DNA from: Cohnella rhizosphaerae
Lineage (GTDB): Bacteria > Bacillota > Bacilli > Paenibacillales > Paenibacillaceae
NCBI RefSeq assembly: GCF_029525575.1
Contig: NZ_JAPDIA010000007.1
Span: 868,001 to 932,000 of the forward strand
Length of the DNA: 64,000 bases
Direction of reading: 5' to 3'
The notes under the pieces were generated by a model. That model saw only the letters and a list, made by a program, of their open reading frames with translations, did no database searches and was not told the DNA's origin. Shown here one piece after another: positions 2,372 through 25,472 of the stretch. Numbering within the stretch: position 1 is the stretch's first letter; each line of letters begins with the position of its first letter. The position numbers were made by a program, and so were the translations under genes.

Positions 2372-3196
2372 TGTCCGCGAGACAACCCCGTGCCTACCTC
2401 AAAGCGGCGCTGCTCTATGTCGCGCTGTTCGTCTTTCTGATCCCGTTCCTTTTGATCCTTATGAACTCGTTCAAGAAGACGCAATACTTTGTCGAAAATC
2501 CGATCGCATGGCCGACGAGCTTCGATTTCTCCAACTACAAAAGCGCGTTTGAAAATATGGGCTTTTTGCAGGCGTTTACCAACTCCTTGATCATTACGGT
2601 CGCAGGCGTTGCCCTGATCCTCGTTTTCTCGTCGATGACGGGGTATCTGTTCGTTCGGTTTAAATGGAAAATGAATACCGTGCTCTTTTTTTATTATGCT
2701 GGCTTCCATGACGCTGCCGTTCCAGGTCATCATGATTCCGCTTGTCATGCTGTACGGCAATATGCATCTGCTGGATACGAAGCTGAGCCTGCTGTTCATG
2801 TACATGGGTTTTGGCATTCCGTTCGGCGTCTTCACCTTTCACGGCTTCATCAAGGGCATTCCGTTCGAACTGGAGGAGTCTGCGTTCATGGAAGGCAGTT
2901 CGAGATTTCGAACCTTCTTCCAGATCGTATTGCCTTTGCTGAAACCGGTCATCGTCACGCTTCTCGTGCTGGACGTCCTGTGGATCTGGAACGACTACCT
3001 GCTGCCGAGCCTGGTGCTATTGTCTCCGGGTCAGAAGACGCTGCCGCTGTCGACCTATACGTTCTTCTCCTCGTACTCCGTCGATTTCTCGCCGTTGATG
3101 GCCGGATTGGTCATGACGATCGTTCCGGTACTGGTGCTGTACTTGTTTTTGCAAAACCAGATCATCAAAGGCATTACGGAAGGCGCGTTAAAATAA
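2371..3196 (+). CDS. Sugar ABC transporter permease, MalG-like (frameshifted as read)
   Basis: Second membrane subunit of the importer. The N-terminal half ends LFVRFKWKMNTVLFF and the C-terminal half starts in another frame with MLASMTLPFQVIMIPL. Removing one T from the T7 run at 2686-2692 joins them as VLFFIMLASMTLP, the normal MalG family sequence. The EAA loop is FELEESAFMEGSSRFRTFFQ, followed by the typical WNDYLLPSLVL block. About 274 residues after correction. The permease overlaps its partner upstream by one base and is the last transport gene of the operon. Confidence 0.9.
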
Positions 3197-3210
3197 CGAT
3201 CGGTCCCCGG

Positions 3211-3239
3211 CTGAAAAAGTGCGGCAATAAGCTTATAAT
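3211..3239 (+). promoter_or_regulatory. Probable sigma-A promoter of the first LacI gene
   Basis: A perfect -10 hexamer TATAAT at 3234-3239 has a 17-bp spacer to CTGAAA at 3211-3216, which matches four of six -35 positions. It sits 26 bp before the LacI start, so the regulator can be transcribed apart from the transporter operon. Confidence 0.5.
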
Positions 3240-3264
3240 GAGCTTAAAACGCTAGGTGGGCCCT

Positions 3265-4255
3265 ATGGCAAAAATCGAAGATGTCGCTGAAAGGGCGGGC
3301 GTGTCTGTCACGACAGTCTCCCGCGTGCTCAACAATCGAGGTTACATCAGCCAGAAAACGCGGGATAAAGTGGACGAAGCGATGAAGGCGTTGAACTACC
3401 AGCCCAACGAGATGGCCCGGGCGCTGTTCCGCAAAAAATCGAACATGATCGGCCTCATCGTCCCGTCGGTCGCGCATCCTTTTTTTTAGCGAGCTGGCTT
3501 ATCACCTGGAATATTACGCGGACCGGAGCGGGTACAAGCTGCTGCTCTGCAATTCGAATCGCGATATCGCCAAGGAACGCGAGTACATCGATATGTTGAA
3601 AAAAAATCGCGTGGATGCGATCGTGATGGGCAGCTCGGTGTTAGACGTTCAACATTATCTGGATTTGAACCTGCCGATCGTCTCGTTCGACCGCACGATC
3701 GCGGGGAATATCCCGATCGTTACCTCCGACAATAGATTGGGAGGAAGTCTCGCCGCACGACTGCTTCTTGAGAAAGACTGCAGGAGACCGGTCTATGTCT
3801 ATCGGGGCCTCGGAGGACCTCATCATCGGGCTTTGCTGGCCAGCGGGAGAGCGCAAGGCTTCGACGAGGCGCTTCGTCTCGCCGGTGTCGCTCCCTTCCA
3901 TATCGAGCTTGGTCAGGCGAGCGAGGAGGAGGACCGGACCGACGAGTCGATTGACCGCTTTCTGGAGGAAAACCCGGACGTGGACGGCATTTTCGCAAGC
4001 AGCGACGTGATCGCCGCAGAGGTGATGCAGGCTTGCCATCGGCTGTCCAAGCGTATTCCGCGCGACATGAAGCTCATCGGATACGACGATGTCCATATCG
4101 CGTCGCTGGTGACTCCGCGCCTTAGCACGATCAGGCAGCCGATCCGGGAAATGTGCCAGCGTTCCGTCGAATTGATTGCCAGGCAGCTCGAAGGCGAGGA
4201 AGTGGCCGGGCTTCATTCCTTTCCCGTAACATTAATTGAACGCGAGACGACTTAA
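3265..4255 (+). CDS. LacI family transcriptional regulator 1 (frameshifted as read)
   Basis: DNA-binding repressor of the LacI/GalR family. Residues 1-50 are the helix-turn-helix and hinge (KIEDVAERAGVSVTTVSRVL, then LNYQPNEMARAL); the rest is a periplasmic-binding-protein-like sensor ending RLSTIRQPIREMCQ and PVTLIERETT. The frame breaks in the T8 run at 3480-3487; with one T fewer the sequence continues HPFFSELAYHLEYYADRSGY. The ATG at 3265 has AGGTGGG upstream; a GTG at 3256 is less likely. It is a close paralogue of the next gene and probably controls the sugar locus. Confidence 0.9.
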
Positions 4256-4344
4256 ACTTAGACGGGGCGTTTGCCGGTCGGCAGCGGATGTCGGACGGAG
4301 GCATCCGATGCGCCCTTTCGGACGGGACAGGCTTTCGAATTTCG

Positions 4345-4360
4345 TGTCAACCGGTTGACA
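4345..4360. promoter_or_regulatory. LacI/GalR-type operator palindrome
   Basis: TGTCAACCGGTTGACA is a perfect 16-bp palindrome with a central CG, the layout of LacI/GalR operators. It lies 34 bp upstream of the second LacI gene, so one or both adjacent LacI proteins probably bind here (inference). Confidence 0.7.
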
Positions 4361-4393
4361 TCATGGCGGCTGTTTGCATAAGGAGGCTCTTTG

Positions 4394-5371
4394 ATGGTTG
4401 TCACCATTAAAGATATTGCGGAAAGAGTGGGCGTGTCCGTCACGACGATATCCCGCGTGTTGAACAACCGCGGGTATTTAAGCGACAACCTGAAAAAAAA
4501 AGGTTCACGAAGCGATGGAGGAGATGAACTACCAGCCGAATGAATTGGCTCGTTCGCTCTCGCGCAAAAAATCGAATGTGATCGGACTCATCGTTCCGGA
4601 TATTTCGCATCCGTTTTTCGGACAAATGGCCAAGCATATCGAGTACTACGCTTATAAGTACGGCTATAAGCTTATGCTTTGCAATTCGCTGCTGAACAAA
4701 AAGAAGGAAAAAGAGTATATCGAATTGTTAAGAGCGAGCCAAGTGGACGGCATTATTATGGGCAGCCATACGATGCGCGTCGAGGACTATATGGCGATAC
4801 GCCTGCCGCTCGTCACGCTGGACCGTCGAATCTCCGACAGCATTCCTTATATTTCGTCGGACAATTATCGCGGCGGGGCGCTGGCTACCAGGCTTCTGCT
4901 CAAGAAGAATTGCAAAAAAAGTAGCGTATCTCAGCGGCAGCTTGCAGTTGAACCTGCTGGCGAAGCAGAGACACGACGCGTTCATGGCGCAGGTCGCAGG
5001 ACAAGAGGTCGAGTATGTCGTGAGACAAACGGATCTGAACGGATTCAAATACAAGGAATACGAGCGGCTCGTCCGCGAGCTGTTCGGGGAGCATCCGGAT
5101 ATCGACGGCGTATTCGCCAGCAGCGATATGCTGGCCCTGCAGGTGCTTCGGGAGTGCCGCAGACTTGGCAGATCGGTGCCCGAGCAGGTCAAAGTCGTCG
5201 GGTACGACGGGATTCAGATCGGCGGAGCGGAAGATTTGACGACGATCGAGCAGCCGATCCAGGAGATGGGCAAGCTCGCCGTGCAGCGGCTTGCTGCAGC
5301 AAATGGCCGGCGAGGAGACGCCGCTTGAGACCATACTGCCTGTCAGGCTGCTGGAGAAGGGAACGACATAG
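4394..5371 (+). CDS. LacI family transcriptional regulator 2 (three frameshifts as read)
   Basis: Second LacI/GalR regulator, in tandem with and clearly paralogous to the first (shared blocks VSVTT.SRVLNNRGY, NYQPNE.AR.L.RKKSN and QPI.EM). AGGAGG lies at 4381-4386, before the ATG. Three +1 shifts interrupt it: the A9 run at 4493-4501, the A7 run at 4914-4920 and a TT at 5291-5292. Corrected, it is about 325 residues ending PVRLLEKGTT, matching the end of its neighbour. The 16-bp palindrome just upstream is a plausible autoregulatory operator. Confidence 0.88.
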
Positions 5372-5427
5372 GTTTTTCGATCCGCGTTTTCGATTCTATC
5401 ATCATTATTCAAGCAGGAGGTAAATAT

Positions 5428-6384
5428 GTGCTGGACCTGAACCGTTCATTGGCCATGTCGGCCGGCGAATATGATCTGTTAACCGTCGGCGAGCTTCTGG
5501 TCGACCTGATCTCGGCGGAATACGGCGATCACCATGACGCCTCCGTCTATCATAAATATTTCGGAGGCTCGCCCGCGAACATCGCGATGAACGCGAACAA
5601 GCTGGGCATACGGCCGCAGCTGGCCGCGGCGGTAGGCGCGGACGGTCTGGGGAAGGCGCTCATCCGGCAAGTGCGCGCGGCAGGGATCGAGCCGGCGCTT
5701 ATCGAGACAGTCGAACATGCGACCAGCCTCGTGCTTGTGACCAAGAGCCGGTCGACGCCGGTTCCGATCTTTTATCGCGGCGCGGACTATCGCTTATCCT
5801 TCTCGCCCGGGCTCGAACGGAGCCTTCGCCAATCCAAGATGATGCACTTCTCCAGCTGGCCCATCTCCATGCAGCCTTCCCGCGGCACGATCGAACGCAT
5901 GGTCGAGATCGCCAGGGCAAACGGCATATGGATCGGCTTCGATCCGAACTATCATCCGATGCTCTGGCCGAAGGAGGAGGACGGCGTCGGCTACATCAAA
6001 GCGATGATCGGAAAAGCGGATATCGTGAAGCCGTCGGACGATGACGCGGAGAGACTGTTCGGCAAAGATTCGCCCGACAATCATATTCGCCGTTTTCTGG
6101 ACCTTGGCGCCAAGCTGGTTATTTTGACGCTCGGGAAGGACGGCGCGCTGGTATCCAACGGCAAGGAGACGATCCGGTTTCCTTCGCTGGCTGCGGAAGT
6201 CGAAGATACGACGGGCGCGGGAGACGCGTTCTGGTCCGGCCTCTACGCGGCGCTGGCGCAAGGCTGCGTGCTGCGGGAGGCGATCCGGACCGGGCTTGCG
6301 GCGAGCGCTTTTAAGCTCAAGTATACCGGCGCCCTTGCGGATCTCCCTCGCCTCGATGAATTAAAAGCACGATACGGAATTTAA
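5428..6384 (+). CDS. PfkB family carbohydrate kinase, probable fructokinase
   Basis: Ribokinase/PfkB-fold sugar kinase, 318 residues. The N-terminal glycine motif is KYFGGSPANIAMNANKLG, and the C-terminal ATP/anion-hole signature is DTTGAGDAFWSG with the catalytic Asp. The GTG start at 5428 is supported by AGGAGG at 5415-5420; an overlapping ATG at 5426 stops after four codons. It sits immediately before sucrose phosphorylase, which releases fructose, so conversion of fructose to fructose-6-phosphate is the likely role. A 5-dehydro-2-deoxygluconokinase-like specificity cannot be excluded. Confidence 0.85.
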   Translation: MLDLNRSLAMSAGEYDLLTVGELLVDLISAEYGDHHDASVYHKYFGGSPANIAMNANKLGIRPQLAAAVGADGLGKALIRQVRAAGIEPALIETVEHATSLVLVTKSRSTPVPIFYRGADYRLSFSPGLERSLRQSKMMHFSSWPISMQPSRGTIERMVEIARANGIWIGFDPNYHPMLWPKEEDGVGYIKAMIGKADIVKPSDDDAERLFGKDSPDNHIRRFLDLGAKLVILTLGKDGALVSNGKETIRFPSLAAEVEDTTGAGDAFWSGLYAALAQGCVLREAIRTGLAASAFKLKYTGALADLPRLDELKARYGI

Positions 6385-6396
6385 GAGGTGCATAGG

Positions 6397-7870
6397 ATGG
6401 CATTAAAAAAATCAGGTTCAGCTCATCACGTACCCCGATTCGCTGGGCGGCGATCTGAAGACGCTGGGCCGCGTGCTGGAGACGCATTTTTCCGACATCT
6501 TCAAAGGCGGCGTTCATATTTTGCCGCCGTTCCCCTCCTCCGGGGATCGCGGCTTCGCTCCGCTTACCTACCTGGAGATCGATCCTCAATTCGGCACATG
6601 GGAGGATATCAAGTCGATCGGAGAGCGATTCGACGTCCTGGTCGATCTGATGGTGAATCATATCTCCCGTCAATCGCCTTATTTTCAGGATTTTCTCGCG
6701 AATGGCCGGGCGTCCGAATATGCCGACTTGTTTCTGACGCTGGATAAGATCTGGCCGGACGGCCACCCTGTCCAGGACGATATCGATAAAATGTTCTTGC
6801 GCAGACCGCTGCCTTATTCGACGTTCGCCATCGGGAATTCGGGCACGGAGGAAAAGGTGTGGACGACGTTCGGCAAGACCGATCCTTCGGAGCAGATCGA
6901 TCTCGATATCCGCTCGGACAAAGTAAAGGATCTGCTGACGACATTTTTCTTGAACTTCAAGAAGAACAATGTCAAAATCGTCAGGCTGGACGCTGTCGGC
7001 TATGTGATCAAAAAAGCTGGGTACCAGCTGCTTTTTCGTGGAGCCGGAAATTTTCGAGTTTCTGGATTGGGTCATGGCGCTCGCGGCATCGCTCGATATG
7101 GAATTGCTGCCGGAGGTGCACGCGCACTATACGATTCAGTACAAGCTTGCCGAGCATGGCTGCTGGATTTACGACTTTATTTTGCCGTATCGCATACTCG
7201 ATACGCTGCTGAACCGGAATGGCCGCGCGCTTGTTCAATATTTGAAAAACCGCCCCGCGAAGCAGTTCACGATGCTCGATTGTCATGACGGGATTCCGGT
7301 GAAGCCCGACTTGGACGATCTGATCGATTCGTCGGAGGCCCGCAAGGTCGTGGATACTTGCCTACAAAGGGGCGCCAATCTCAGCCTGATCCTGTCGGAC
7401 GAGCACAAGTCCGCGGACGGCTTCGATGTTCATCAGATCCGATGCTCCTATTATTCGATGTTGAATCGCGACGATAATGCCTATTTGGCTGCCAGGGCGA
7501 TCCAGTTTTTCGCGCCCGGAATTCCTCAGGTTTATTATGTGGGTTTGCTGGCAGGGGAGAACGACGACGCGCGCGTGCAAGAGACAGGTGAAGGCAGAGA
7601 GATTAACCGCCACAACTTCAGTCCGGAAGAGATCGAGCTGTCGTTGGAGAAGGAAGCGGTGCAGCGGCTGCTGAAGCTGATTCGCTTCAGAAACGAATAC
7701 GAAGCGTTCCAGGGGGGAATTCCAGGTCGTGGATTCCCCCCGAAGAAGAGATCAGGCTAAAATGGACGAACGAAGATAAGAACTGCGAGCTTTTTGTCGA
7801 TTTAAGAACGCATCTGGCATGGATCGCTTATGTCGCCCCTACGGGAAAGACGGAAGAATACTGGATCTGA
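6397..7870 (+). CDS. gtfA: Sucrose phosphorylase, GH13_18 (four frameshifts as read)
   Basis: Cleaves sucrose with phosphate to alpha-glucose-1-phosphate and fructose in the cytoplasm. Corrected, it starts MALKNQVQLITYPDSLGG and contains GGVHILPPFPSSGDRGFAP, typical of the family. The GH13 catalytic residues are visible in RLDAVGY (nucleophile Asp), LPEVHAHY (acid/base Glu) and CHDGIPV (transition-state Asp). The frame is broken at the A7 run 6405-6411, GGG 7019-7021, the G6 run 7712-7717 and the C6 run 7736-7741. Removing one base at each gives about 489 residues ending APTGKTEEYWI. With the PfkB kinase and importer it completes a sucrose pathway; a related glucoside phosphorylase is the alternative. 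Confidence 0.9.
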
Positions 7871-7927
7871 CGAAGAAGATCGTTCGCTAAATAAAGAGAG
7901 AGAGCCGTCGAAGGTCCGGCTAATCGC

Positions 7928-8992
7928 TTAGAGCAGCGTCAGGAGCGTCAAGCCCGACAGAAGCGCGGATACGATCAGCAGGACGGCGATCGGGCGTACG
8001 GCATGCCGGAGCGCGCGAATATTCACGTTAAGGCCCATGCCGGCCATCGCGACCGTGAGCAGGACGGTCGTCAGCGTCGAAGCGCCGGCGGTCGCGCGGG
8101 AAGGGAGCGGCCATCCGGCGGCGGCCAAGCCCGAACCGAGCAGACTCATGGCCAGGAAACCGATTAAAAACCAGGGGAACGAAGCTGCGGCGCCTGCCGC
8201 GGCTTCTTTTTCGCCTGCCGGCCGGCGCCGGGCGAGTCGGCTGTTGCGCCAGTGAAGCGCCAGGCAGAGCGGCACCAGCAAAAACACGCGGGCGAGCTTC
8301 GCCAGCATGCCGCTCTCAAGCGCGTCGGGTCCGCCAGCCGAAGCGGCCATGGCGACATGCGCGATCTCGTGCAGCGTCAAGCCGGTCCACAGACCGTATG
8401 CGGTCCCGCTCAGCGGAAGGATGTCCGCGAGCAGCATCGAGGCGACAGCCGCCGCCGTGCCGACGATCGCGATCAAACCCGCAGCGGTCGCGGTGCGGTC
8501 TTCCCTGGCCGCGACCAGCGGCGAGACGGCGGCGATCGCGGCCGCGCCGCAAATGCCCGTGCCAACGGCCAGGAGCAGCGTCAACTGCCGGTCGGCCTTC
8601 AGCAAACGGCCCAGCGCGAGCCCCGCTGCCAGCGAGAAGGCCAGCGTGCCGACGCTTCTCGCCAGAAGCGGCAAGCCCTGGTGGAGCACGACATCCAGCG
8701 GCAGCTTTAATCCGAACAAAACAATCGCCGCGCGAAGCAGCTTGGTCGTGCCGAAGCGAACGCCCGGCGCCCAAGCCTGCGAATAGCCGAAAAGCTGGCG
8801 AAAAGCAATCGCAGCCAGCAGCGTGCAGGCCATCGGGCCGAACAGGCCGAAGCCCGGGAGACGCGCGAGCTGCCAGCCGAGCAGGGCCAACGCCGCTGCG
8901 AGCGTCAGGCCGGGCGCGTATGCGGTTAGACGCGCCACGCGCGTGCGCAACAGGGGGACGGGCTGTATTTGTCGTGTCGGAGCGATGTTCAT
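7928..8992 (-). CDS. YeiH family putative sulfate exporter
   Basis: Polytopic inner-membrane protein of the YeiH/UPF0324 family, about 354 residues. Family motifs include FGTTKLLRAAIVLFGLKLPL, AVGTGICGAAAIAA and LTLHEIAHVAMAA. The ATG at 8992 is preferred over the in-frame ATG at 9001 because GAGGAG ends 9 bases before it and abuts the other. It is divergent from a LysR gene, the arrangement known for yeiH with a YeiE/CysL-type LysR regulator. The sulfate/sulfite export assignment is family-level only. Confidence 0.85.
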   Translation of the reverse strand: MNIAPTRQIQPVPLLRTRVARLTAYAPGLTLAAALALLGWQLARLPGFGLFGPMACTLLAAIAFRQLFGYSQAWAPGVRFGTTKLLRAAIVLFGLKLPLDVVLHQGLPLLARSVGTLAFSLAAGLALGRLLKADRQLTLLLAVGTGICGAAAIAAVSPLVAAREDRTATAAGLIAIVGTAAAVASMLLADILPLSGTAYGLWTGLTLHEIAHVAMAASAGGPDALESGMLAKLARVFLLVPLCLALHWRNSRLARRRPAGEKEAAAGAAASFPWFLIGFLAMSLLGSGLAAAGWPLPSRATAGASTLTTVLLTVAMAGMGLNVNIRALRHAVRPIAVLLIVSALLSGLTLLTLL

Positions 8993-14198: not shown

Positions 14199-14219
14199 GT
14201 GTCGAGGAGGCGATTCATC

Positions 14220-14669
14220 GTGAAACGATCAGGGCTGCGAAAAACGGGAAAGACGTTCTGCCTGCTGCTGTCCACCGTCGCGCTGTCGGTTGCATTGGCG
14301 GGATGCGGGACGGACAAGGCGAACGACAATCCGCCGATGCCGTCGGCGAGCATGAAGGACGACGGCATGATGTCGCCGGAGGCGAGCATGAAGGACGACG
14401 GCATGATGTCGCCGGAGGCAAGCATGAAGGACGACGGCATGATGTCGCCGGAGGCGAGCATGAAGGACGACGGCATGATGTCGCCGGAGGCAAGCATGAA
14501 GGACGACGGCATGATGTCGCCGGAGGCGAGCATGAAGGACGACGGCATGAAGTCGCCGGAGGCGAGCATGAAGGACGACGGCATGAAGTCGCCGGAGGCG
14601 AGCATGAAGGACGACGGCATGATGTCGCCGGAGGCAAGCATGAAGGACGATAGCATGGGCAAGAAGTAA
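14220..14669 (+). CDS. Methionine-rich repeat lipoprotein (MXKDX-like)
   Basis: Surface lipoprotein of about 149 residues. The signal peptide ends in lipobox LAGC (VALSVALAGCGTDKAND). The mature part is almost only a 12-residue tandem unit, SMKDDGMMSPEA, in eight full copies and a partial ninth, each with three Met; two copies have MK in place of MM. GTG at 14220 is chosen because GAGGAGG ends 9 bases upstream. The composition resembles MXKDX-repeat proteins such as the Met-rich peptide MrpX, an oxidant sink in Azospira. The two-component system and molybdopterin oxidoreductase that follow support a redox role (inference). Confidence 0.85.
   Translation: MKRSGLRKTGKTFCLLLSTVALSVALAGCGTDKANDNPPMPSASMKDDGMMSPEASMKDDGMMSPEASMKDDGMMSPEASMKDDGMMSPEASMKDDGMMSPEASMKDDGMKSPEASMKDDGMKSPEASMKDDGMMSPEASMKDDSMGKK
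14349..14651 (+). repeat. 36-bp coding tandem repeat
   Basis: Eight near-identical 36-bp units plus a partial unit encode the 12-residue Met-rich repeat. Differences are a few silent or Met/Lys changes, indicating recent expansion; copy number probably varies between strains. Confidence 0.95.
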
Positions 14670-14732: not shown

Positions 14733-15447
14733 ATGGCTGCAACGGTGCTGGTCGCGGACGACGAGCGGGATATTACCGACGTCTGCCGGAGATACCTGGA
14801 GCGCGATGGGTTCGAGGTGCTCGTCGCGGACGACGGCGATCAGGCGCTGCGCCTCTGGCGGTCGGAGCGACCCGACCTGCTCGTGCTCGATCTGATGATG
14901 CCGGGCGTATCGGGTTGGGACGTCTGCACCGCCGTTCGCGACGAGGAGGACGTACCGATCATCATGCTGACCGCCAGGGGCGAGGAGAGCGATCGGCTGC
15001 TCGGCTTGACGCTTGGCGCGGACGATTACTTGACCAAGCCGTTCAGCCCCCGCGAACTCGTGCTCCGCGTCCGCAATATTTTGCGCAGAACGGCGCCCCC
15101 CCGCCGCGCCTGCAGACAAGCTGGCGCAGCCGGAAGAAGGCCTTCACTTCGAAGGCCTTTCCCTTTATCCGGCCCAGCGCAAGGTGAAGGCGGGCGGGCG
15201 GGACGTGGAACTCACGGCCACCGAGTTCGATCTTCTGGAATGGTTCGCGCGCCATCCGGGGCAGGTCTTTTCGAGAAGCCAGCTGCTGAGCCGGGTGTGG
15301 GATATCGCCTTCGAAGGCGATTCGACCACGGTCACCGTGCACATGCGCCGGCTGCGCGAGAAGATCGAGCCGAACCCGTCCAAGCCGATATGGCTCAAAA
15401 CGGTATGGGGCATCGGCTACCGGTTCGAAGGGCAACCCGCCGAATGA
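14733..15447 (+). CDS. OmpR family response regulator (frameshifted as read)
   Basis: Receiver domain (residues 1-120) with the acidic pair in VADDERD, phospho-acceptor Asp in LLVLDLMMPG, Thr in MLTARGE and Lys in LTKPFSPREL. The C-terminal winged helix has ELTATEFDLLEWFARHPGQV and WLKTVWGIGYRFE. The frame breaks at the C7 run 15096-15102; one C fewer gives RTAPPAAPADKLAQPEEG. As read, the frame runs on into the kinase, which is an artefact. TGCTATAAT (extended -10) at 14695-14703 and GGGGAG precede the ATG. The stop overlaps the kinase start (ATGA). Confidence 0.9.
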
Positions 15448-16550
15448 GGGGCCGTACGGTAAGGCTGCGCACTTATCTTCTATTATCCAATGCCGTCAGT
15501 CTGGGCGTAATTCTGGCCGTCTTGTTTTATTGCTACAGCCGCATGCTGCTCAGCGCGCCGACGTTCGTCTGGCTCGGCGGCGCCACGCTGCTGGCCGGCG
15601 GCTTGTCGTTCATCCTCCACTTCGTGCTGGTCATGCCGCTTGCCCGCGCGGCGAACCGGATCGGCGAGGCGTCGGGCAAGATCGCTTCGGGCGAGCTCGG
15701 CACGGAGGTGCCCATCGTGGGGCCGGCCGAGTTTCGTCTATTGGCGGAGCGGTTCAACGCGATGAGCCGCCGGCTCAAGACCAGCTTCGAAAACGTGACG
15801 AGGTCCGAGTCCTCGCGCAGGGAGCTCGTGGCGAACGTCGCGCATGACCTGCGCACGCCGCTCGCGCTGCTGCAGTCGCACTCCGAGGCGCTGCTGGACG
15901 GGGTCGTCGAAGACGAGACCGCGCGCGGCGATTACCTGCAAGTCATCCGCAAGGAATCGATAAGGCTGGGGCGCCTGGTCCAGGATCTGTTCGACCTGTC
16001 GAAGCTGGATGCGGGCTCGGACCCTTTCGAGCCTCGGCCCGTAGCGCTCGAAGACGTGCTGATCGACGCGTTGAACGTTTACAGGCCAAAGCTGGAGGAG
16101 AAAAATCTCGAGGTCGTCGTCAAGCTTCCCGAGCCATCCCCGCTCGTGTGGGGCGTAGAGAGCGAGTTGCGCCGGATCGCGGCCAACCTGCTCGACAACG
16201 CGATTCGGCATTCTCCGAACGGTGGCTGCATCGAATGGCGGGCCGCGATCGTGGAGGGCGGGATGGTTTCGATCGCGCTCAGGGACGAAGGGGACGGCGT
16301 GCCGGAGGAGGAGCGGGAGCGAATTTTCGAGCGGTTTTTCCGGTCGGATCGGAGCAGGCGGCGCGAGGGCGGAGGCGCCGGTCTCGGCCTCTCGATCGCC
16401 AAGTCGCTGACGGAGCGGCACGGCGGCGAGATCGGCGTGACGCCTGCGGGAGACGGAGGAAGCGAATTTCGATTTACGCTGAAGCTGGCCGACGCCGGAA
16501 GCGGCGCGGCTCTCGGCAGGAGGAGGGACGCAGAAGATGAAGGAGCGTAA
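15444..16550 (+). CDS. Sensor histidine kinase
   Basis: Membrane sensor kinase of about 368 residues. Two membrane helices near residues 11-30 and 36-59 enclose almost no external loop, so it may sense within the membrane or through a partner. A HAMP domain follows (LARAANRIGEASGKIASGEL), then the phosphoacceptor His in NVAHDLRTPLALLQ and the ATPase boxes NLLDNAIRHSPNGG (N), RDEGDGVPEE (G1) and GAGLGLSIAKS (G2). It overlaps the response regulator by 4 bases and the next oxidoreductase gene by 14, indicating one operon. Confidence 0.93.
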   Translation: MRGRTVRLRTYLLLSNAVSLGVILAVLFYCYSRMLLSAPTFVWLGGATLLAGGLSFILHFVLVMPLARAANRIGEASGKIASGELGTEVPIVGPAEFRLLAERFNAMSRRLKTSFENVTRSESSRRELVANVAHDLRTPLALLQSHSEALLDGVVEDETARGDYLQVIRKESIRLGRLVQDLFDLSKLDAGSDPFEPRPVALEDVLIDALNVYRPKLEEKNLEVVVKLPEPSPLVWGVESELRRIAANLLDNAIRHSPNGGCIEWRAAIVEGGMVSIALRDEGDGVPEEERERIFERFFRSDRSRRREGGGAGLGLSIAKSLTERHGGEIGVTPAGDGGSEFRFTLKLADAGSGAALGRRRDAEDEGA

Positions 16551-17809
16551 ACGGGCGGGCTTCGGCAAGCAGCTGGCGGAGCTGCACCGCTGGAACGCAT
16601 GGCTGGTCGTCGCGCTGGCGGTCAGCGGATTGATCCTGTCCTGGGGCGCGGCGCGAGGCTGGCTTGGGGAAGGGCGCGTGTGGATCAAGCAGTTGCACAT
16701 TTACATCGGCCTGATCACGGGCATCGTGCTTGTCCTGTATGCGCCGCTGCTCAAAAGGCATCTCAAGCAGCTCCGGGGCAGGCCGGGGCAGCGAGGCAAT
16801 CTGGCGTTCGTCGTGTTCCTGCTGCTTGGCTGGCTGGCGTCGGGCATCGTGCTCTGGCAGCTCCGCCATCTGCCGCCCCGCTGGGCGACGAACGCGCTGG
16901 TCGTTCACGATCTGCTGACGTGGGTGGGGCTGCCGTATGCGGCGTACCACTCGATCACCCGGATGCGTTGGGCCAAAAAGCCGCAGCGGCGCGCCGTTCG
17001 CACAGACGATGGCGCGGCAACCGCAGGCGGAACGGGCGCGCATCGCCCGTCCGCTGGCGGGCTGCACCCGGCCGCCAGCCCGCAGCCCTGGATGACGCGC
17101 CGCCAGTTCATCCGGAGCGCCGTGGGCGTGGCGCTGGCCGCCGCGGTGCTGCCGTCCTTTTTCCGCTGGATGGGCAGCAGTCTAAGTCTGAACGCCGGCA
17201 CGGGCAACATCGCCGCGGACGAAACGGACGCGAACCGCATGCTCCCGGCGCCCCAGCCGCTGCCCGGACTCGGCGAACGTCGTCGGCGGCGGCGCCAAGG
17301 GCAGCTTCCGCCTATATACGGTGACGCCGCTCCCGCACTTCGACTCGGACAGCTGGCGCTTCACGATCGACGGACTGGTCGACAAGCCCGCGACGTGGAC
17401 GTGGGAGCAGTTTCTGGCGATCAAGCGCAAGGTGCAGGTCAGCGACTTCCACTGCGTCACCGGCTGGTCGGTGTACGGCAACACGTGGGAAGGCATCCCG
17501 CTCGCGCAGCTGCTGGACGCCGCGGGCGTGCGGACGAACGCGCAGTTCGTGAAGTTCTATTCCGGGGACGGCGTGTACACCGATGCGTTGTCCCTTGAGC
17601 AGGCGAGGATGAAGGACGTCCTGGTCGCCGTGCTCCACGACGGCAAGCCGATCCACCGCGACTACGGCGGTCCGGTCCGTCTGATCGTCCCGGGCATGTA
17701 CGCTTACAAGTCGGTCAAATGGCTGGACCGGATCGAATTGATCGACCGTCCCCACATCGGATACTGGGAGGAGCGGGGCTACGACAACGACGCATGGGTG
17801 AAGGCCTGA
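16537..17809 (+). CDS. Haem b membrane domain / molybdopterin oxidoreductase fusion (frameshifted as read)
   Basis: About 424 residues. The N-terminal part has four membrane helices with paired His (ELHRWNAW, QLHIYIG, VVHDLLTW, AYHSITRM), like a b-type cytochrome. A twin-arginine-like motif MTRRQFIRSAVG and hydrophobic stretch come next. The last part is a sulfite-oxidase-fold Mo-cofactor domain: VSDFHCVTGWSVYGNTWEGI holds the Mo-ligand Cys, and GGPVRLIVPGMYAYKSVKWL is a family block. The frame breaks near GG 17266-17267; one G fewer gives PLPDSANVVGGGAKG. Architecture is like MsrQ joined to MsrP, but sulfite oxidase-like or other substrates are possible. It is the last gene of the two-component operon. 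Confidence 0.82.
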
Positions 17810-17836: not shown

Positions 17837-19246
17837 TTATTCGGCTGTGCTCGCCTTGTTCGCTTCGTTCGCGCCGTCGGCTTGAACCTCCGACTGCGCT
17901 TTTTTCATGAGCGCCTCCGCTTCGGACTGAATCGCCTTGTAGGCCTCGTCTTCCGTTTCCTTTTCGTCGACAATGCTGCGGATATGCCCGTTCACCGATT
18001 CGGCGAACGATTCGTCGAAGCTGCCGGGACCTTGCGGCTCCCCGAAGTAGTAGCGGTCGATCGAATTGGTCGGACGCAGCGCGTAAAACGGTTTGTAATC
18101 CGGGTCCTGCTTCCATTCGGGATACTCCGTTCGAACGGACAGATCCATGCCGCCCACCATGCCGCCGATCGCGGCCTTCGCCTTGCCGACAGATGCGGAC
18201 ATAAAGTAGGAAAGTACTTCCCAGGCCTCTTCGGCATGCGATGCGGCGGCGGGAATGGCGAATATCTCGTACACCTGCACCTCCCCGCCGACGGCCGGAT
18301 CGGAGCTGCGGGCGGGGACCGTGACCGCGCCCCAGTCGAACTTCGGCTTGCCCGACTTCAGATTCGCCATCAGGTTATCGTCGTCGATCGTGATCGCGGC
18401 TTTGCCTTGCTTGAACAGATCGACGGCCTCCATCGCCGCTTGATCGACGTACGATGTGCCGTCGGTCTCCCGGGCTTGCGGCCAGGAGGGGACGAACGTG
18501 CCGCGCTTGTAGGCGGCGGCGACCTGCTTGAACAGCCGCTCCCATGCGGGCGAGTCGAAGGTGACCGCGCCTGTCTTGGCGTTCGCGTAAGTCAGTCCTT
18601 CGGTGCCGGCGATGCGCTGCAGCAAGTCGAAGGGGCCGCGGAGCCAAGGGATATGCAGTCCGACCTCGCCTTTTTGCAGGCGTTTGTCCTGCATGACGCG
18701 GTCGGCCAACGCGATCGTCTGCTCCCAGCTCATGCCGTCCGTCGGGTAGGGAATGCCGAGCCTGTCGAACATGTTTTTGTTGTAATACAACGCGCTGGCA
18801 TGGAAGCCGGGGCCGATCCCGTTGAGCGGGCCGCCGTCCTCGCCGCGAAGGAAATCCAGCGCGCCGGGCGTTACGCCTTCGGTCAGCTTCGACTTGTTCT
18901 GCGCGGACAATTCCTCCAGATTCCGGAGCTTGTCCGCGTTGCGCAGCAGCCGATAGTCGGGAATGCTCAGGATCAACAGGTCGGGCTTCTCCTTGTCCAT
19001 AAAGGCGGCCATCGTCTTGTCGTCGTAAGCCTTATAGTCGTTCTCCGGCTGCATCGGCACATAGCTGACGTTCCAGTCCGGGAAGCGGGCTTCGATAAAA
19101 TCCCTGAATTTCATGTCGTACGCGGAAGTTTGGCAGCAGGCGATGGTGAGCGTCTTCGGCTCGTTCGGCGTTTGCCTGCCGTTCGCGCACCCCGACGCGA
19201 CCGCGAGCAGCAAGGCGAGCGTCATCAGCGCGGCGAGCCGCCTCAT
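17837..19246 (-). CDS. Solute-binding lipoprotein, family 1, without a transporter
   Basis: About 469 residues with a lipoprotein signal (LALLLAVASGC) and a family 1 solute-binding fold. Recognisable blocks are LYYNKNMFDRLGIPYPTDGM and EAWEVLSYFMSASVGKAKAA. The ATG at 19246 overlaps the stop of the upstream gene (ATGA), so it is coupled to the sigma factor operon. No ABC permease or ATPase is nearby, which argues for a sensing rather than transport role (inference). The tail is rich in Glu/Ala/Lys. Confidence 0.85.
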   Translation of the reverse strand: MRRLAALMTLALLLAVASGCANGRQTPNEPKTLTIACCQTSAYDMKFRDFIEARFPDWNVSYVPMQPENDYKAYDDKTMAAFMDKEKPDLLILSIPDYRLLRNADKLRNLEELSAQNKSKLTEGVTPGALDFLRGEDGGPLNGIGPGFHASALYYNKNMFDRLGIPYPTDGMSWEQTIALADRVMQDKRLQKGEVGLHIPWLRGPFDLLQRIAGTEGLTYANAKTGAVTFDSPAWERLFKQVAAAYKRGTFVPSWPQARETDGTSYVDQAAMEAVDLFKQGKAAITIDDDNLMANLKSGKPKFDWGAVTVPARSSDPAVGGEVQVYEIFAIPAAASHAEEAWEVLSYFMSASVGKAKAAIGGMVGGMDLSVRTEYPEWKQDPDYKPFYALRPTNSIDRYYFGEPQGPGSFDESFAESVNGHIRSIVDEKETEDEAYKAIQSEAEALMKKAQSEVQADGANEANKASTAE

Positions 19247-20793
19247 GGCTTCGCCTCCGGCTTCGCCTGCGCGTCGCGAATCGTTTGCGCGGCTTTGGCT
19301 TGCAGCGCCTTGAGGAGCTCCGGCACGTCGAGAACGCCGTCGTTCAAGCTCTGCATCCTGCCGTTGGCTTCGGTCCAGATGGCGCTCGCGACGCGCCGGT
19401 AGGACGGATCGGCATTGCGAGCGGCGGCGTCGAGCACGCGCGACGGATCGACCTCGGCGCGGTAAAACACGGCGGAACGGCTGTCGGCTGCCGCGGCGTC
19501 CGCCGCTACCGTAGGCAAGGCGTCGCCGTGCGGGAGGCGGACCAGCCGGTTGGCCTGCGACGGACTCATGATGTACTTCAGCAGCTCCCAGGCGGCGTCC
19601 GCATGGGGCGCTTTTTCGGGAATGGCGAATACGAACGGGATCTCGAAAGCGCCGTCTGTCCCGCGCGACCCTTCGTCCGTCGGCGGAGACAGAACGCCCC
19701 AGTCGTCCTCGCCGAGTCCCATTTGGGAGCCGGCCTGAGCGATGTTGCGGAGATACGAGCTGGAGCCATACGTCAACGCCGAGCGGCCGTTCAGAAACGG
19801 ATCGTGCGCGTACAGCTCCTTCATCTCGACGCTGCCTTCCCATTTGAGCGGGGGGCTCGTTGCTGATCCAGCCCTCCTGATGGCCGACGGTCAGCTTGGT
19901 CCAGATGGCGCTCCAGGCCGGCGTGTCGACCGTCGCGGCGCCCAGCTTGGCATCGGCGAAGCGCAGTCCCTGGCTGCTGCCGATCGAATTGGCCTCTACC
20001 CAGATCGCGGAGTTATAGCCGAAGCTGAGACCGTAGACCGGCTTTCCGTTTTTTTGAAGCCCCTGGAACCGCGCGGCCGCGTTCATGACTTCGTCCCACG
20101 TCATGCCGTCCGTTGGCTCCGGAACGCCGTTTTCCCTGAACAGCTTGCGGTTGTAATACAGCGCGTAGCCCGTAAATTCGGGGGCGAACCCGTAGAGCCC
20201 GCCGCCGCCGGCTTCGCGCATGGTTTGCTTGACGGCCGTCTGCCAGCTGTCATCGTCGATCCCGTCCCGCTTCATCCACGCGTCCAGCGGCTTCAGCAGG
20301 CCGGCATCAGTCAGCTCGGGCAAGTAGGCGAGCGGAACCTGAACGAGATCGGCCGGATTGTTTTCCAACTGCTTCTTGAATGTATCGATGCCCGGCGTCA
20401 GGTTGTATAGATTGGCGCTCTTCCCCCGGGTATTCCGCATATTCGAATCTGACCGACGGATGACGGATAATAAAGGGCTGGCCGTACAAGGACATGAAGC
20501 CGCTATTGTCCCAATACATAATGTTCAGCGTCGTCGTCTCGGTCTCGCTGATCACCGGCTTCGCCGCTTCTTCGCGCTTCAACAGTTCGGCCAGTTCGCC
20601 CCGGAAGACTGCTGCTCCTGCGATCAGCAGCGCGACGACGGAGGCCGCCGCGACGCGTCTTCTGCGCCTGGCTCGTCGTTCCAGCATTCTGATGCGCTCC
20701 TTCACTTTTTTTGATCGTCGGGGTGCCGAAGCCGCCGGAGCCGAGCGGCAGGTCCGACAGCGTGCGTTCCCAGCGGTCGCGATCGTCCGTCAT
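19243..20793 (-). CDS. Membrane-anchored solute-binding protein in anti-sigma position (three frameshifts as read)
   Basis: Corrected length about 515 residues. Residues 1-46 are a basic cytoplasmic tail (MTDDRDRWERTLSDLPLGSG..., then ERRARRRRR). Residues 47-63 are one membrane helix (VAAASVVALLIAGAAVF) with no lipobox. The rest is an external family 1 solute-binding domain (LYYNRKLFRENGVPEPTDGM, AWELLKYIMSPSQANRL). The start overlaps the sigma factor stop (ATGA) and the stop overlaps the next solute-binding gene. +1 shifts lie at the T7 run 20706-20712, C5 20423-20427 and G6 19850-19855. The topology is that of a transmembrane anti-sigma factor with a ligand-binding sensor (inference). Confidence 0.8.
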
Positions 20794-21422
20794 GCTCGTC
20801 CGCTCCCTTCTTCTTCGTCTTCGCGCCCTCGTTCGAATTGCTTGTTCATGGCGGCCCGCGCCCTGTGAATGCGCGATTTGACCGTTCCTTCCGACACCTG
20901 GAGCAGCTCGGCGATCTCGGCCATGCTCAGGCCGTGGTGCGCCTGGAGCAGCAGACTCTCCCGCAGCTTGCGCGGCAGTTCCATGACCGTCCGCCATATT
21001 TCCCGCTGCCGATAGGAGCCGAGCCATTCGTTCTCCGCGGATATCTGGGATTCGCGAACCGGCATGACCGCCGGCAGGCGAATGCGGCGATACCAGGCCG
21101 ACTTGAAATGATCCAGCGCCGTATTGCGCGTGATCTTCAGCAGCCAGGCGCGGGCGCCCGATTCGCCGCGGAACGTATGCAGGCTCTGATAAGCCTTGAT
21201 AAATACGTCCTGCGCGATATCTTCGGCCGTCTCCCGCTTGCCGGTCATAAAGAAGGCGTAATTCCATACGTCGCGGCCGTAGGTGAGCATAAGCTCCTCC
21301 AGTACGGCGTCGCGGTCGACGCCTTCGGTCATATGCTTCAAATAGTCGTGATCCAACGCATCCACCTCTTCTCCGTCGACGGCCGCAGCCGCTGCGGAGC
21401 CCCTGTGCATTCTCGTTTTCAT
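20790..21422 (-). CDS. ECF-type RNA polymerase sigma factor
   Basis: Sigma-70 family group 4 factor. Region 2 is visible as AEDIAQDVFIKAYQSLHTFRG, then ARAWLLKITRNTALDHFKS. Region 4 is LPRKLRESLLLQAHHGLSMA plus VSEGTVKSRIHRARAAMNK, a helix-turn-helix for the -35 element. There is no extra C-terminal domain. The start is uncertain: ATG 21422 (MKTRMHRG) has GGAAGG upstream, while a TTG further in (LDHDYLKHM) also has a candidate site. The stop overlaps the membrane-anchored solute-binding gene by 4 bases. An ECF-like promoter lies upstream. Confidence 0.88.
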   Translation of the reverse strand: MKTRMHRGSAAAAAVDGEEVDALDHDYLKHMTEGVDRDAVLEELMLTYGRDVWNYAFFMTGKRETAEDIAQDVFIKAYQSLHTFRGESGARAWLLKITRNTALDHFKSAWYRRIRLPAVMPVRESQISAENEWLGSYRQREIWRTVMELPRKLRESLLLQAHHGLSMAEIAELLQVSEGTVKSRIHRARAAMNKQFERGREDEEEGSGRA

Positions 21423-21502
21423 AGTAGCCTTCCGGCGCCGTCCGGGGAAGACCGCTTCGCATTCTCCTTTGCCCGATGATCGTGCGGCCGGCACATCTAA
21501 GG

Positions 21503-21527
21503 AACGAGGCGCGTCGGCAAAAGTTCC
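21503..21527 (-). promoter_or_regulatory. ECF-type promoter, probably autoregulated
   Basis: On the minus strand GGAAC, a 16-base spacer and CGTT match the AAC-N16-CGT layout of Bacillus ECF promoters, about 80 bases before the sigma factor start. Self-transcription by the encoded sigma factor is the natural inference. Confidence 0.55.
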
Positions 21528-24340: not shown

Positions 24341-24370
24341 AAGCCCGGGCGGGATGCCCGGGCTTTCCTT
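24341..24370 (+). terminator. Intrinsic terminator after ychF
   Basis: Perfect stem AAGCCCGGGC / GCCCGGGCTT with loop GGGAT, followed by TCCTT; the tail is weak in T. Confidence 0.8.
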
Positions 24371-24373
24371 GCG

Positions 24374-25370
24374 TTACGCGACACCGCCGCACAATTCGGC
24401 AACGCAGCAGGCTAAGACCTCGAGTTATGCGATACCGCCGCACAATTCGGTCTCGCAGCGGGTCAAGGCAGCGAGTTATGCGATACCGCCGCACAATTCG
24501 GCCCCGCAGCCGGCTAAAGCTGCGAGTTATGCGATCCCGCCGCACAATTCGGTCTCGCAGCAGGCTAAGACCTCGAGTTATGCGATCCCGCCGCACAATT
24601 CGGCCTCGTAGCCGGCCAAGCCCGCGAGTTATGCGATCCCGCCGCACAATTCGGCCCCGCAGCCGGCCAAGCCCGCGAGTTATGCGATCCCGCCGCACAA
24701 TTCGGCCTCGTAGCCGGCTAAAGCTGCGAGTTATGCGATCCCGACGCACAATTCGGCCCCGCAGCCGGCCAAGCCCGCGAGTTATGCGATCCCGCCGCAC
24801 AATTCTGCCCCGCAGCGGGTCAAGGCAGCGAGTTATGCGATCCCGCCGCACAATTCGGCTACGCAGCCGGCTAAGACATCGAGTTACGCGATCCCGCCGC
24901 ACAGCACCGCCCCTGCAGCCGGCCAAAACCGCGATTTATGCGATCCCGCCGCACAATTCGGCCTCGCAGCCGGCCAAGCCCGCGAGTTATGCGATCCCGC
25001 CGCACAATTCGGCCCCGCAGCCGGCCAAGCCCGCGAGTTATGCGATCCCGCCGCACAAATTCGGTCTCGCAGCGGGTCAAGGCAGCGAGTTATGCGATCC
25101 CGCCGCACAGCACCGCCCCTGCAGCCGGCCAAAACCGCGATTTATGCGACCCCGCCGCACAATTCGGTCCAGCAGGCCGGCCAAGCCCGCGAGTTATGCG
25201 ATCCCGCCGCACAATTCTGCCCCGCAGCGGGTCAAGGCAGCGAGTTATGCGATCCCGCCGCACAATTCGGCTACGCAGCCGGCTAAGACATCGAGTTACG
25301 CGATCCCGCCGCACAGCACCGCCCCTGCAGCCGGCCAAAACCGCGATTTATGCGACCCCGCCGCACAATT
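24374..25370. repeat. 51-bp intergenic minisatellite, about 19.5 copies
   Basis: About twenty units in which CGAGTTATGCGATCCCGCCG and CACAATTCGG are nearly invariant and the last 20 bases vary among a few versions. Each unit contains the inverted repeat GCCG-N7-CGGC. Three consecutive variant units recur later as a block, so there is a higher-order repeat. The array fills the gap between convergent ychF and the MarR gene; no gene was found in 24313-25472. Long open frames exist only because 51 is divisible by three. Confidence 0.95.
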
Positions 25371-25472
25371 TCATCAAACCAACCATCTTCCGCTTCTTTT
25401 TCTTCTCGATAATTCCCGTACCGGGCCGCCGCCCAATAACTTAGGAAGCATTTGAATACAATAACAGCAGCG

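Follow-up and report, generated by a model that had tools for sequence, protein, structure and literature searches.

The window analysed here is a stretch of 64,000 nucleotides from Cohnella rhizosphaerae (contig NZ_JAPDIA010000007.1, positions 868,001 to 932,000), and its element of interest is an operon of three minus-strand genes (17837–21527) encoding, in this order, an extracytoplasmic function (ECF) sigma factor, a membrane-anchored solute-binding protein with a transmembrane helix (TM-SBP), and a solute-binding protein (SBP) lipoprotein. The genes are joined by ATGA overlaps at 20790–20793 (sigma/TM-SBP) and 19243–19246 (TM-SBP/lipoprotein), the first of which places the TM-SBP gene directly behind the sigma gene, as is typical of anti-sigma genes; the operon showed no second candidate for an anti-sigma gene. 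The sigma factor (20790–21422, with an uncertain start at ATG 21422 or GTG 21365) consists of sigma2 and sigma4 regions only (Pfam Sigma70_r2, 9e-18; Sigma70_r4_2, 2e-15), the composition of ECF sigma factors, and matches the NCBIfam sigma70-ECF superfamily and ECF sigma chains in the PDB. It is preceded by an ECF-type promoter, GGAAC-N16-CGTT (21503–21527). The TM-SBP gene (19243–20793), broken in frame three times in the assembly and delineated by means of intact homologues (L036–L039, L041–L046, and L048–L053), encodes a 46-residue cytoplasmic tail (20655–20793), which has a conserved sequence motif and is a putative anti-sigma domain, a single predicted transmembrane helix, Arg-rich on the inside (20601–20654), and an extracellular solute-binding domain (19243–20600), recognised by Pfam on the frame pieces (SBP_bac_1/SBP_bac_8) and on the intact homologues, and by the model of a homologue. 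The third gene (17837–19246) is intact and encodes an SBP with a lipobox (Pfam SBP_bac_8, 1.6e-16). An earlier sequence-only reading of this DNA had listed the three overlapping genes, the second solute-binding lipoprotein and the promoter, and all are borne out by the coordinates, the Pfam domains and, for the promoter, conservation in relatives; likewise, no ATP-binding cassette (ABC) permease or ATPase was recognised among the scanned neighbouring genes of the window. We consider it likely that the operon is a sigma/anti-sigma signalling module whose sensor has a carbohydrate-type solute-binding fold. The proposal of that reading that the TM-SBP is an anti-sigma factor with an SBP-fold sensor gains support from sequence comparison, namely from the conservation of the tail and from the relatives of the tail encoded behind sigma genes.

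Sixty relatives were searched with the lipoprotein, which gave loci with the same three genes, and a tail profile (A2) was built from the first 72 residues of 16 intact TM-SBPs and used for tail searches without selection for sigma genes. Tail matches on any ectodomain were found in 67 of 295 genomes of the family and in 82 of 296 genomes of the order (overlapping sets), and in 3 of 398 genomes of a phylum sample, one of these being the window's own genome and the other two giving weak matches. The neighbourhood comparison suggested by the sequence-only reading thus recovered the sigma/TM-SBP order in 73 Paenibacillales loci besides the window, 48 in one set (L036–L053 and L132–L161) and 25 in an order-level set (L237–L262). 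By dataset labels they fall in three families of the order (the window's own, f2 with genome G037 only, and f6), and the named hosts are Cohnella and Paenibacillus species (26 loci, with a recognised tail protein in 17). The TM-SBP frame is broken in 4 of the 48 loci (L040, L047, L160, and L161); L160 and L161 are near-identical loci of one genome and both are counted, and L040 and L161 were labelled as SBP type by hand, as the broken frames hide the domain. Five loci were left out because they duplicate the window or another locus (L236, L253, L263, L266, and L267), and two, L264 and L265, because they show no tail by a shorter tail model; regions with no recognised tail amounted to 4 of 60 in one set (L131, L165, L168, and L169) and 3 of 60 in another (L327, L338, and L347). 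Three further SBP-type loci (L290, L291, and L294) appeared later and stand outside the 73 and the promoter counts given below. The core module of sigma factor, TM-SBP and SBP lipoprotein is real and recurs beyond chance.

The two weak tail matches outside the order (genomes G810 and G793) were not recovered by the shorter tail model. In G793, from another family of the phylum, an ECF-like gene is followed by a gene for a 501-residue protein with a weak tail match (E, 5e-4; L265, 818–2874), which is possibly a distant relative of the tail proteins as judged from its sequence. In a metagenome-assembled genome (ZCTH02-B3; L067, 5851–7329), one open frame runs from a partial sigma region 2 straight into an SBP domain; it lacks the rest of the sigma factor and the tail, and reflects a deletion or an assembly join.

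In the intact homologues the tail carries the motif WE..L...P....GF....(K/R)(V/I)(K/R)ER(I/V), after which come a stretch rich in Arg and Lys and a single hydrophobic helix. The hydrophobic stretch starts at about residue 44, with a positive-inside bias in 44 of 44 homologues, and the predicted topology, with an N-terminal cytoplasmic domain, one transmembrane helix and an outside C-terminus, is that of an anti-sigma factor. Conservation was computed over 44 of the 49 sequences (the 48 loci and the window), short or broken ones being left out: its mean is 0.54 in the tail, 0.285 in the juxtamembrane, transmembrane and linker region, and 0.323 in the ectodomain. A lack of tail conservation had been named beforehand as grounds for abandoning the proposal; the tail turned out to be the best conserved 28-residue window of the TM-SBP (0.533, versus 0.509 for the runner-up, located in the ectodomain). 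Nearly every tail protein is encoded on the same strand as a sigma gene and no more than 150 bases behind it (156 of 157; 75/75, 25/25, and 56/57 in the three sets). The 18 founding loci had been picked together with their sigma genes; when they are removed, 138 of 139 tail proteins still follow a sigma gene (57/57, 25/25, and 56/57). Because these remaining proteins were found by the tail alone, the association is independent evidence, and supports the assignment of the tail to sigma factors. In addition, 40 of 44 transmembrane segments hold an Ala-Ala pair, which is weakly compatible with intramembrane cleavage.

Weaker relatives of the tail carry other ectodomains, including DUF4850, DUF4871, a signal-peptidase-like domain, a BNR/Ycf48 propeller, and several with no Pfam match, a distribution that supports, at the level of sequence, the view of the tail as an anti-sigma domain with exchangeable sensors. 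One such relative lies in the window's own genome (L112, contig C9, 3088–4807), where a second sigma gene is followed by the gene for a protein of 389 residues with an ectodomain that has no Pfam match. In L115 (3036–5082), directly behind an ECF sigma gene, the tail is found on a signal-peptidase-like protein (Peptidase_S26, E, 4e-13; TIGR02227 above its cut-off), and in L325 (1642–3231) on a BNR/Ycf48-like repeat protein, also behind an ECF sigma gene. DUF4871 (L114, L334, L339, L340, and L346) and DUF4850 (L116, L117, and L119) occur repeatedly on the tail behind sigma genes, and this recurrence suggests that both are sensor domains.

The sigma factors of the 73 SBP-type loci form one side of a single branch of the sigma tree (support, 99/94), and the SBP-type label requires one change on this tree, compared with a mean of 29.1 after shuffling; the SBP sensor was therefore probably gained once and stayed with its sigma factor. 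Coevolution between tail and sigma factor was analysed on 155 pairs (effective number, 83) by mean-field direct coupling analysis (DCA) and by mutual information. The top pairs fall in the tail rather than in the transmembrane segment at shares of 0.67–0.80 by DCA and 0.82–1.00 by mutual information (0.64 expected). By DCA there is a weak excess of pairs linking helix 1 to sigma4 and helix 2 to sigma2 at K = 15–30 (p, 0.007–0.047 in five of six runs, and 0.19 in the sixth), but not in the other settings given below.

The ectodomain shows both the SBP_bac_1/SBP_bac_8 profiles and the two-lobed fold of the SBP superfamily. In an AlphaFold model of the homologue from Cohnella sp. GbtcB17 (L057; mean predicted local distance difference test score (pLDDT) of 80, mostly above 85 beyond the first 80 residues), the closest match in VIA-align is PDB entry 4rk2 (Z-score, 27.4; root-mean-square deviation, 5.1 over 373 residues), followed by 4ovj (Z-score, 27.3), the beta-1,2-gluco-oligosaccharide protein 5ysb (26.9), MalE 3uor (26.1), and YesO 4r6k (25.7). 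Foldseek likewise recovers the SBP fold (E, 3.9e-20). Matches within one Z unit are treated as tied, and the specific ligand is not readable from them. The model thus points to a carbohydrate-type SBP fold for the outer domain, which keeps many invariant aromatic residues. Downstream of the TM-SBP gene, at least one further SBP gene is present in 46 of the 49 rows, and two or three in 12, with a lipobox by a simple motif in 45 of 61 such genes; these counts refer to the 49 rows, as the sequence of the 25 order-level loci is too short for a downstream view. TM-SBP/lipoprotein pairs are duplicated in L073 (twice) and L142. In L050 (6115–10924), three SBP genes in a row follow the TM-SBP gene, and then a second, distant ECF-like sigma gene.

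An ABC importer would be expected to show permease and ATPase genes in the operon. A regular expression for permeases found no motif in the operon at 48 loci, with a positive control that failed (0 of 13 unlinked SBP loci); next to L041 and L042 it flagged frames resembling permeases on the opposite strand, and the flanks of 4 of the 48 loci (L052, L133, L140, and L141) contain frames resembling ABC ATPases. Because the positive control had failed, a Pfam scan of the flanks was substituted, covering 114 proteins from 38 of the 48 loci (at most two frames of at least 180 codons per side). ABC_tran was found in 4 of the 114 proteins and FecCD in 2; an ABC permease family occurs in at most 2, as it is not among the 25 commonest of the 151 families found, and the least common of these 25 had 2 members. 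By these tests neither importer gene was recognised as part of the operon, and a permease may be encoded elsewhere. Nor is there a conserved adjacent pair of histidine kinase and response regulator, as in SBP-dependent two-component systems: the flanks vary, with no Pfam family in more than 8 of the 114 proteins and a kinase-type ATPase domain in 4. Since the flanking genes vary, the conserved core is the operon itself.

In all 49 rows (the 48 loci and the window), the motif GGAAC-N16-CGT(T/C) precedes the sigma gene. Among the 25 order-level loci it is present with N16 in 20 and with N17 in 5, so that all 74 SBP-type loci have it (N16 in 69, and N17 in 5); the N17 spacing was admitted only after it had been seen in the five loci, and the controls were then rescored. 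These controls, 26 sigma genes paired with tail proteins of other ectodomain types, gave N16 in 1 and N17 in none, and the N16 motif occurs in 0.17% of shuffled upstream regions. Second TM-SBP copies with a decayed tail, either degenerate or cut by a stop, have a GGAAC-N16-CGTC of their own in L142 (2605–4047) and L152 (2225–3706); despite the loss of the tail, both keep the membrane anchor, the SBP domain and the promoter, and a lipoprotein gene follows the copy in L142 but not that in L152.

CnrYX, like the module proposed here, is arranged at the membrane, and the ectodomain of RsgI is a polysaccharide-binding module, whereas that of the TM-SBP is a solute-binding protein. In the class II anti-sigma factor CnrY, helix 1 binds sigma4 and the last helix binds sigma2 (PMC7406223). 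By analogy with CnrYX/CnrH, the tail may be a short two-helix cytoplasmic anti-sigma segment placed on an ECF sigma factor; its two helices are predicted at low confidence and without a sequence match. It differs from CnrY in having no detectable sequence relation to solved chains and in being followed, on the same polypeptide, by a sensor of SBP fold. Class I anti-sigma domains (ASDI/ZAS) are recognisable domains that often hold a zinc motif, and their length is given as more than 50 residues (PMC7406223); the tail, with 46 residues, no His/Cys zinc motif by eye and no Pfam match in four proteins, is not of this class by these features. RsgI proteins of the RsgI/SigI systems of Clostridium thermocellum are membrane-anchored anti-sigma factors that sense extracellular substrates and are cleaved in the membrane, with subsequent processing by ClpXP (PMC12203970). 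The proposed TM-SBP function is alike in combining a membrane-anchored anti-sigma factor with extracellular sensing, so that the comparison with RsgI drawn in the sequence-only reading holds for the logic; it does not extend to the domains, since no RsgI match appeared at E values up to 1 in four homologues and the sigma factor is of the ECF type (sigma2/sigma4). The outer part of the TM-SBP would serve signalling much like the SBPs of the three-component systems CuaDSR and XylFII-LytS, where CuaD is a lipoprotein beside a membrane sensor (PMC10384115); the output there is a histidine kinase with a response regulator, whereas here the SBP is fused to a sigma-linked membrane protein. In the accessible portion of a review, the receptors said to be stimulated by SBPs are chemoreceptors, sensor kinases, cyclic-di-GMP enzymes and Ser/Thr kinases; ECF sigma factors are named there as a receptor class, but not among the SBP-stimulated ones (PMC9602780). 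In agreement with the statement of the sequence-only reading that no characterised example was known, a literature search that left many subscription papers uncovered showed no SBP-type anti-sigma factor; one may be described elsewhere. By these analogies, the TM-SBP would be like a CnrY-type anti-sigma factor in its inner part, and like the SBP three-component systems in its outer part.

A working mechanism can be outlined as follows. The 46-residue tail would fold as two helices around the ECF sigma factor, with one helix contacting sigma4 and the other sigma2, as reported for CnrY, and hold it away from RNA polymerase. Outside, the SBP domain, alone or with the SBP lipoprotein, may bind an oligosaccharide-like ligand, as suggested by its fold and by the pairing of the two proteins. 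Ligand binding could then change the TM-SBP or expose it to stepwise proteolysis, upon which the tail would free the sigma factor. The free sigma factor would transcribe its own operon from the conserved GGAAC-N16-CGTY promoter, so that mainly the sensor and the SBP lipoprotein would increase, the latter possibly in the service of permeases whose genes lie elsewhere. Such a self-amplifying sensor, with the SBP lipoprotein as its main product, is favoured because the operon is the only clear target found. A wider version of this idea, which we hold to be evenly poised between right and wrong, is that the tail represents an undescribed family of compact anti-sigma domains of Paenibacillales with sensors swapped behind one helix, one branch of which captured a carbohydrate-binding SBP and, together with its partner SBP lipoprotein, forms a two-protein receptor for sugars with direct, kinase-free control of a sigma factor.

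Bacteria commonly use solute-binding proteins as extracellular receptors, with kinases and chemoreceptors among the known outputs. If the proposal is true, the fusion of an SBP to an anti-sigma tail adds sigma factors to these outputs and lets one protein link sugar binding to transcription. Many membrane proteins that are encoded behind ECF sigma genes in Cohnella, Paenibacillus and related bacteria presently match only DUFs, SBPs or nothing, and the conserved tail offers a handle for annotating them; a tail joined to one helix and an SBP would also lend itself well to the engineering of sensors. The promoter and the tail make the proposal directly testable.

Several results weigh against this interpretation. 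The tail profile matches no anti-sigma chain among the solved structures searched, and in a scan of four intact TM-SBPs the tail was free of Pfam domains. In the L057 model, the tail helices (residues 3–13, and 24 onward into the membrane helix, 24–62) have pLDDT values below 60, although such values might fit a segment that folds on its partner. The coevolution block excess is absent at K = 60 by DCA (p, 0.06–0.33), and it was seen neither with mutual information nor when SBP and non-SBP pairs were analysed separately. In L073, L142, and L152 the tail of a TM-SBP is lost or degenerate, and the protein may therefore act without it; the promoters ahead of the second copies in L142 and L152 may simply have been carried along in the duplication. 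Finally, the search for a regulon gave no enrichment over the reversed pattern used as control, either with GGAACYWYN12TCGTY in the window's own genome (6 sites versus 15 reversed) and in six close genomes (33 versus 77), or with GGAACYWTYN11WCGTC in 15 other genomes (22 versus 33). Because no genome-wide signal was found, the likeliest output of the sigma factor is the operon itself. The five other sites in the window's own genome lie within open frames, one of them (L187) being also 164 bases ahead of a response-regulator frame. A site common to four genomes ahead of another SBP gene was rejected as a target because it lies within the last codons of a response-regulator gene. Two intergenic sites precede secreted or membrane proteins (L286 and L289). 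In L073 (Paenibacillus plantiphilus, 2894–8774), the two tandem TM-SBP/lipoprotein pairs have no tail, and no sigma gene is present in the 12 kb of sequence covered.

Two other functions of the proteins were weighed against ligand sensing by the anti-sigma factor. It is conceivable, and we regard it as the less probable though serious option, that the TM-SBP is an anti-sigma factor whose SBP domain no longer binds a small ligand and acts as a docking platform, with the signal coming through the SBP lipoprotein or from stress of the cell wall or envelope. The further SBP gene present behind nearly all TM-SBP genes and the duplication of whole pairs suggest a protein–protein partnership of this kind, and related tails carry further ectodomains that bear no relation to SBPs; yet the model keeps the full carbohydrate-SBP fold, many aromatic residues of the ectodomain are invariant, and the second TM-SBP of L152 has no lipoprotein gene behind it. 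Alternatively, both SBPs may be transport proteins for permeases encoded elsewhere, with the sigma factor merely controlling their expression and the tail tethering the sigma factor or the TM-SBP without inhibition. This would agree with the operon being the only clear target and with the two or three further SBP genes at some loci, but we judge it unlikely: an SBP has no need of a conserved cytoplasmic tail for transport, sigma genes also precede related tails with non-SBP ectodomains, the permease motif was missing from the operon (by the test whose positive control failed), and permease families are as rare in the flanks as described above even though ABC_tran was found in four proteins.

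The remaining explanation concerns the window itself, where the TM-SBP gene has no single open frame, a further point against the proposed function. The gene spans three minus-strand frames, with shifts near 20706–20712 (a run of A), 20423–20430 (a run of C/G) and 19850–19855 (a run of C). The sequence-only reading had described a continuous TM-SBP, reading through these breaks and missing them; its tail, one helix and large external domain are as described in the intact copies of relatives, but not in one open frame here. If the copy were a pseudogene, its anti-sigma gene would be genuinely disrupted and the sigma factor unrestrained in this strain, and all three frame changes of the operon do fall in the TM-SBP gene: alignment with L036 (92% identical over 3604 bases) shows exactly three one-base indels, all inside it. 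Each of them, however, adjoins a run of five to seven equal bases, the pieces in the three frames are still 88–92% identical to the L036 protein, and the genome is 91.5% complete; other broken TM-SBP copies occur in genomes G012 and G034 (completeness, 94 and 92). Frame breaks also affect adjacent plus-strand genes, namely a response regulator with its receiver and DNA-binding halves in different frames (14733–15080 and 15184–15444) and a cytochrome/molybdopterin oxidoreductase gene split over frames (16537–17809). The assembly seems to hold several errors of the homopolymer type. Given the breaks in neighbouring genes and the intact copies in close relatives, the three breaks in the TM-SBP gene are taken as probable assembly errors, with a small chance of being real, and a pseudogene appears very unlikely.

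Two repetitive regions lie elsewhere in the window. A small lipoprotein gene on the plus strand (14199–14669) consists mostly of a tandem repeat of approximately ASMKDDGMMSPE, which is open in several frames on both strands. Short tandem repeats with open repetitive frames on both strands are also found at about 24350–25450, behind a gene for a YchF-type GTPase.

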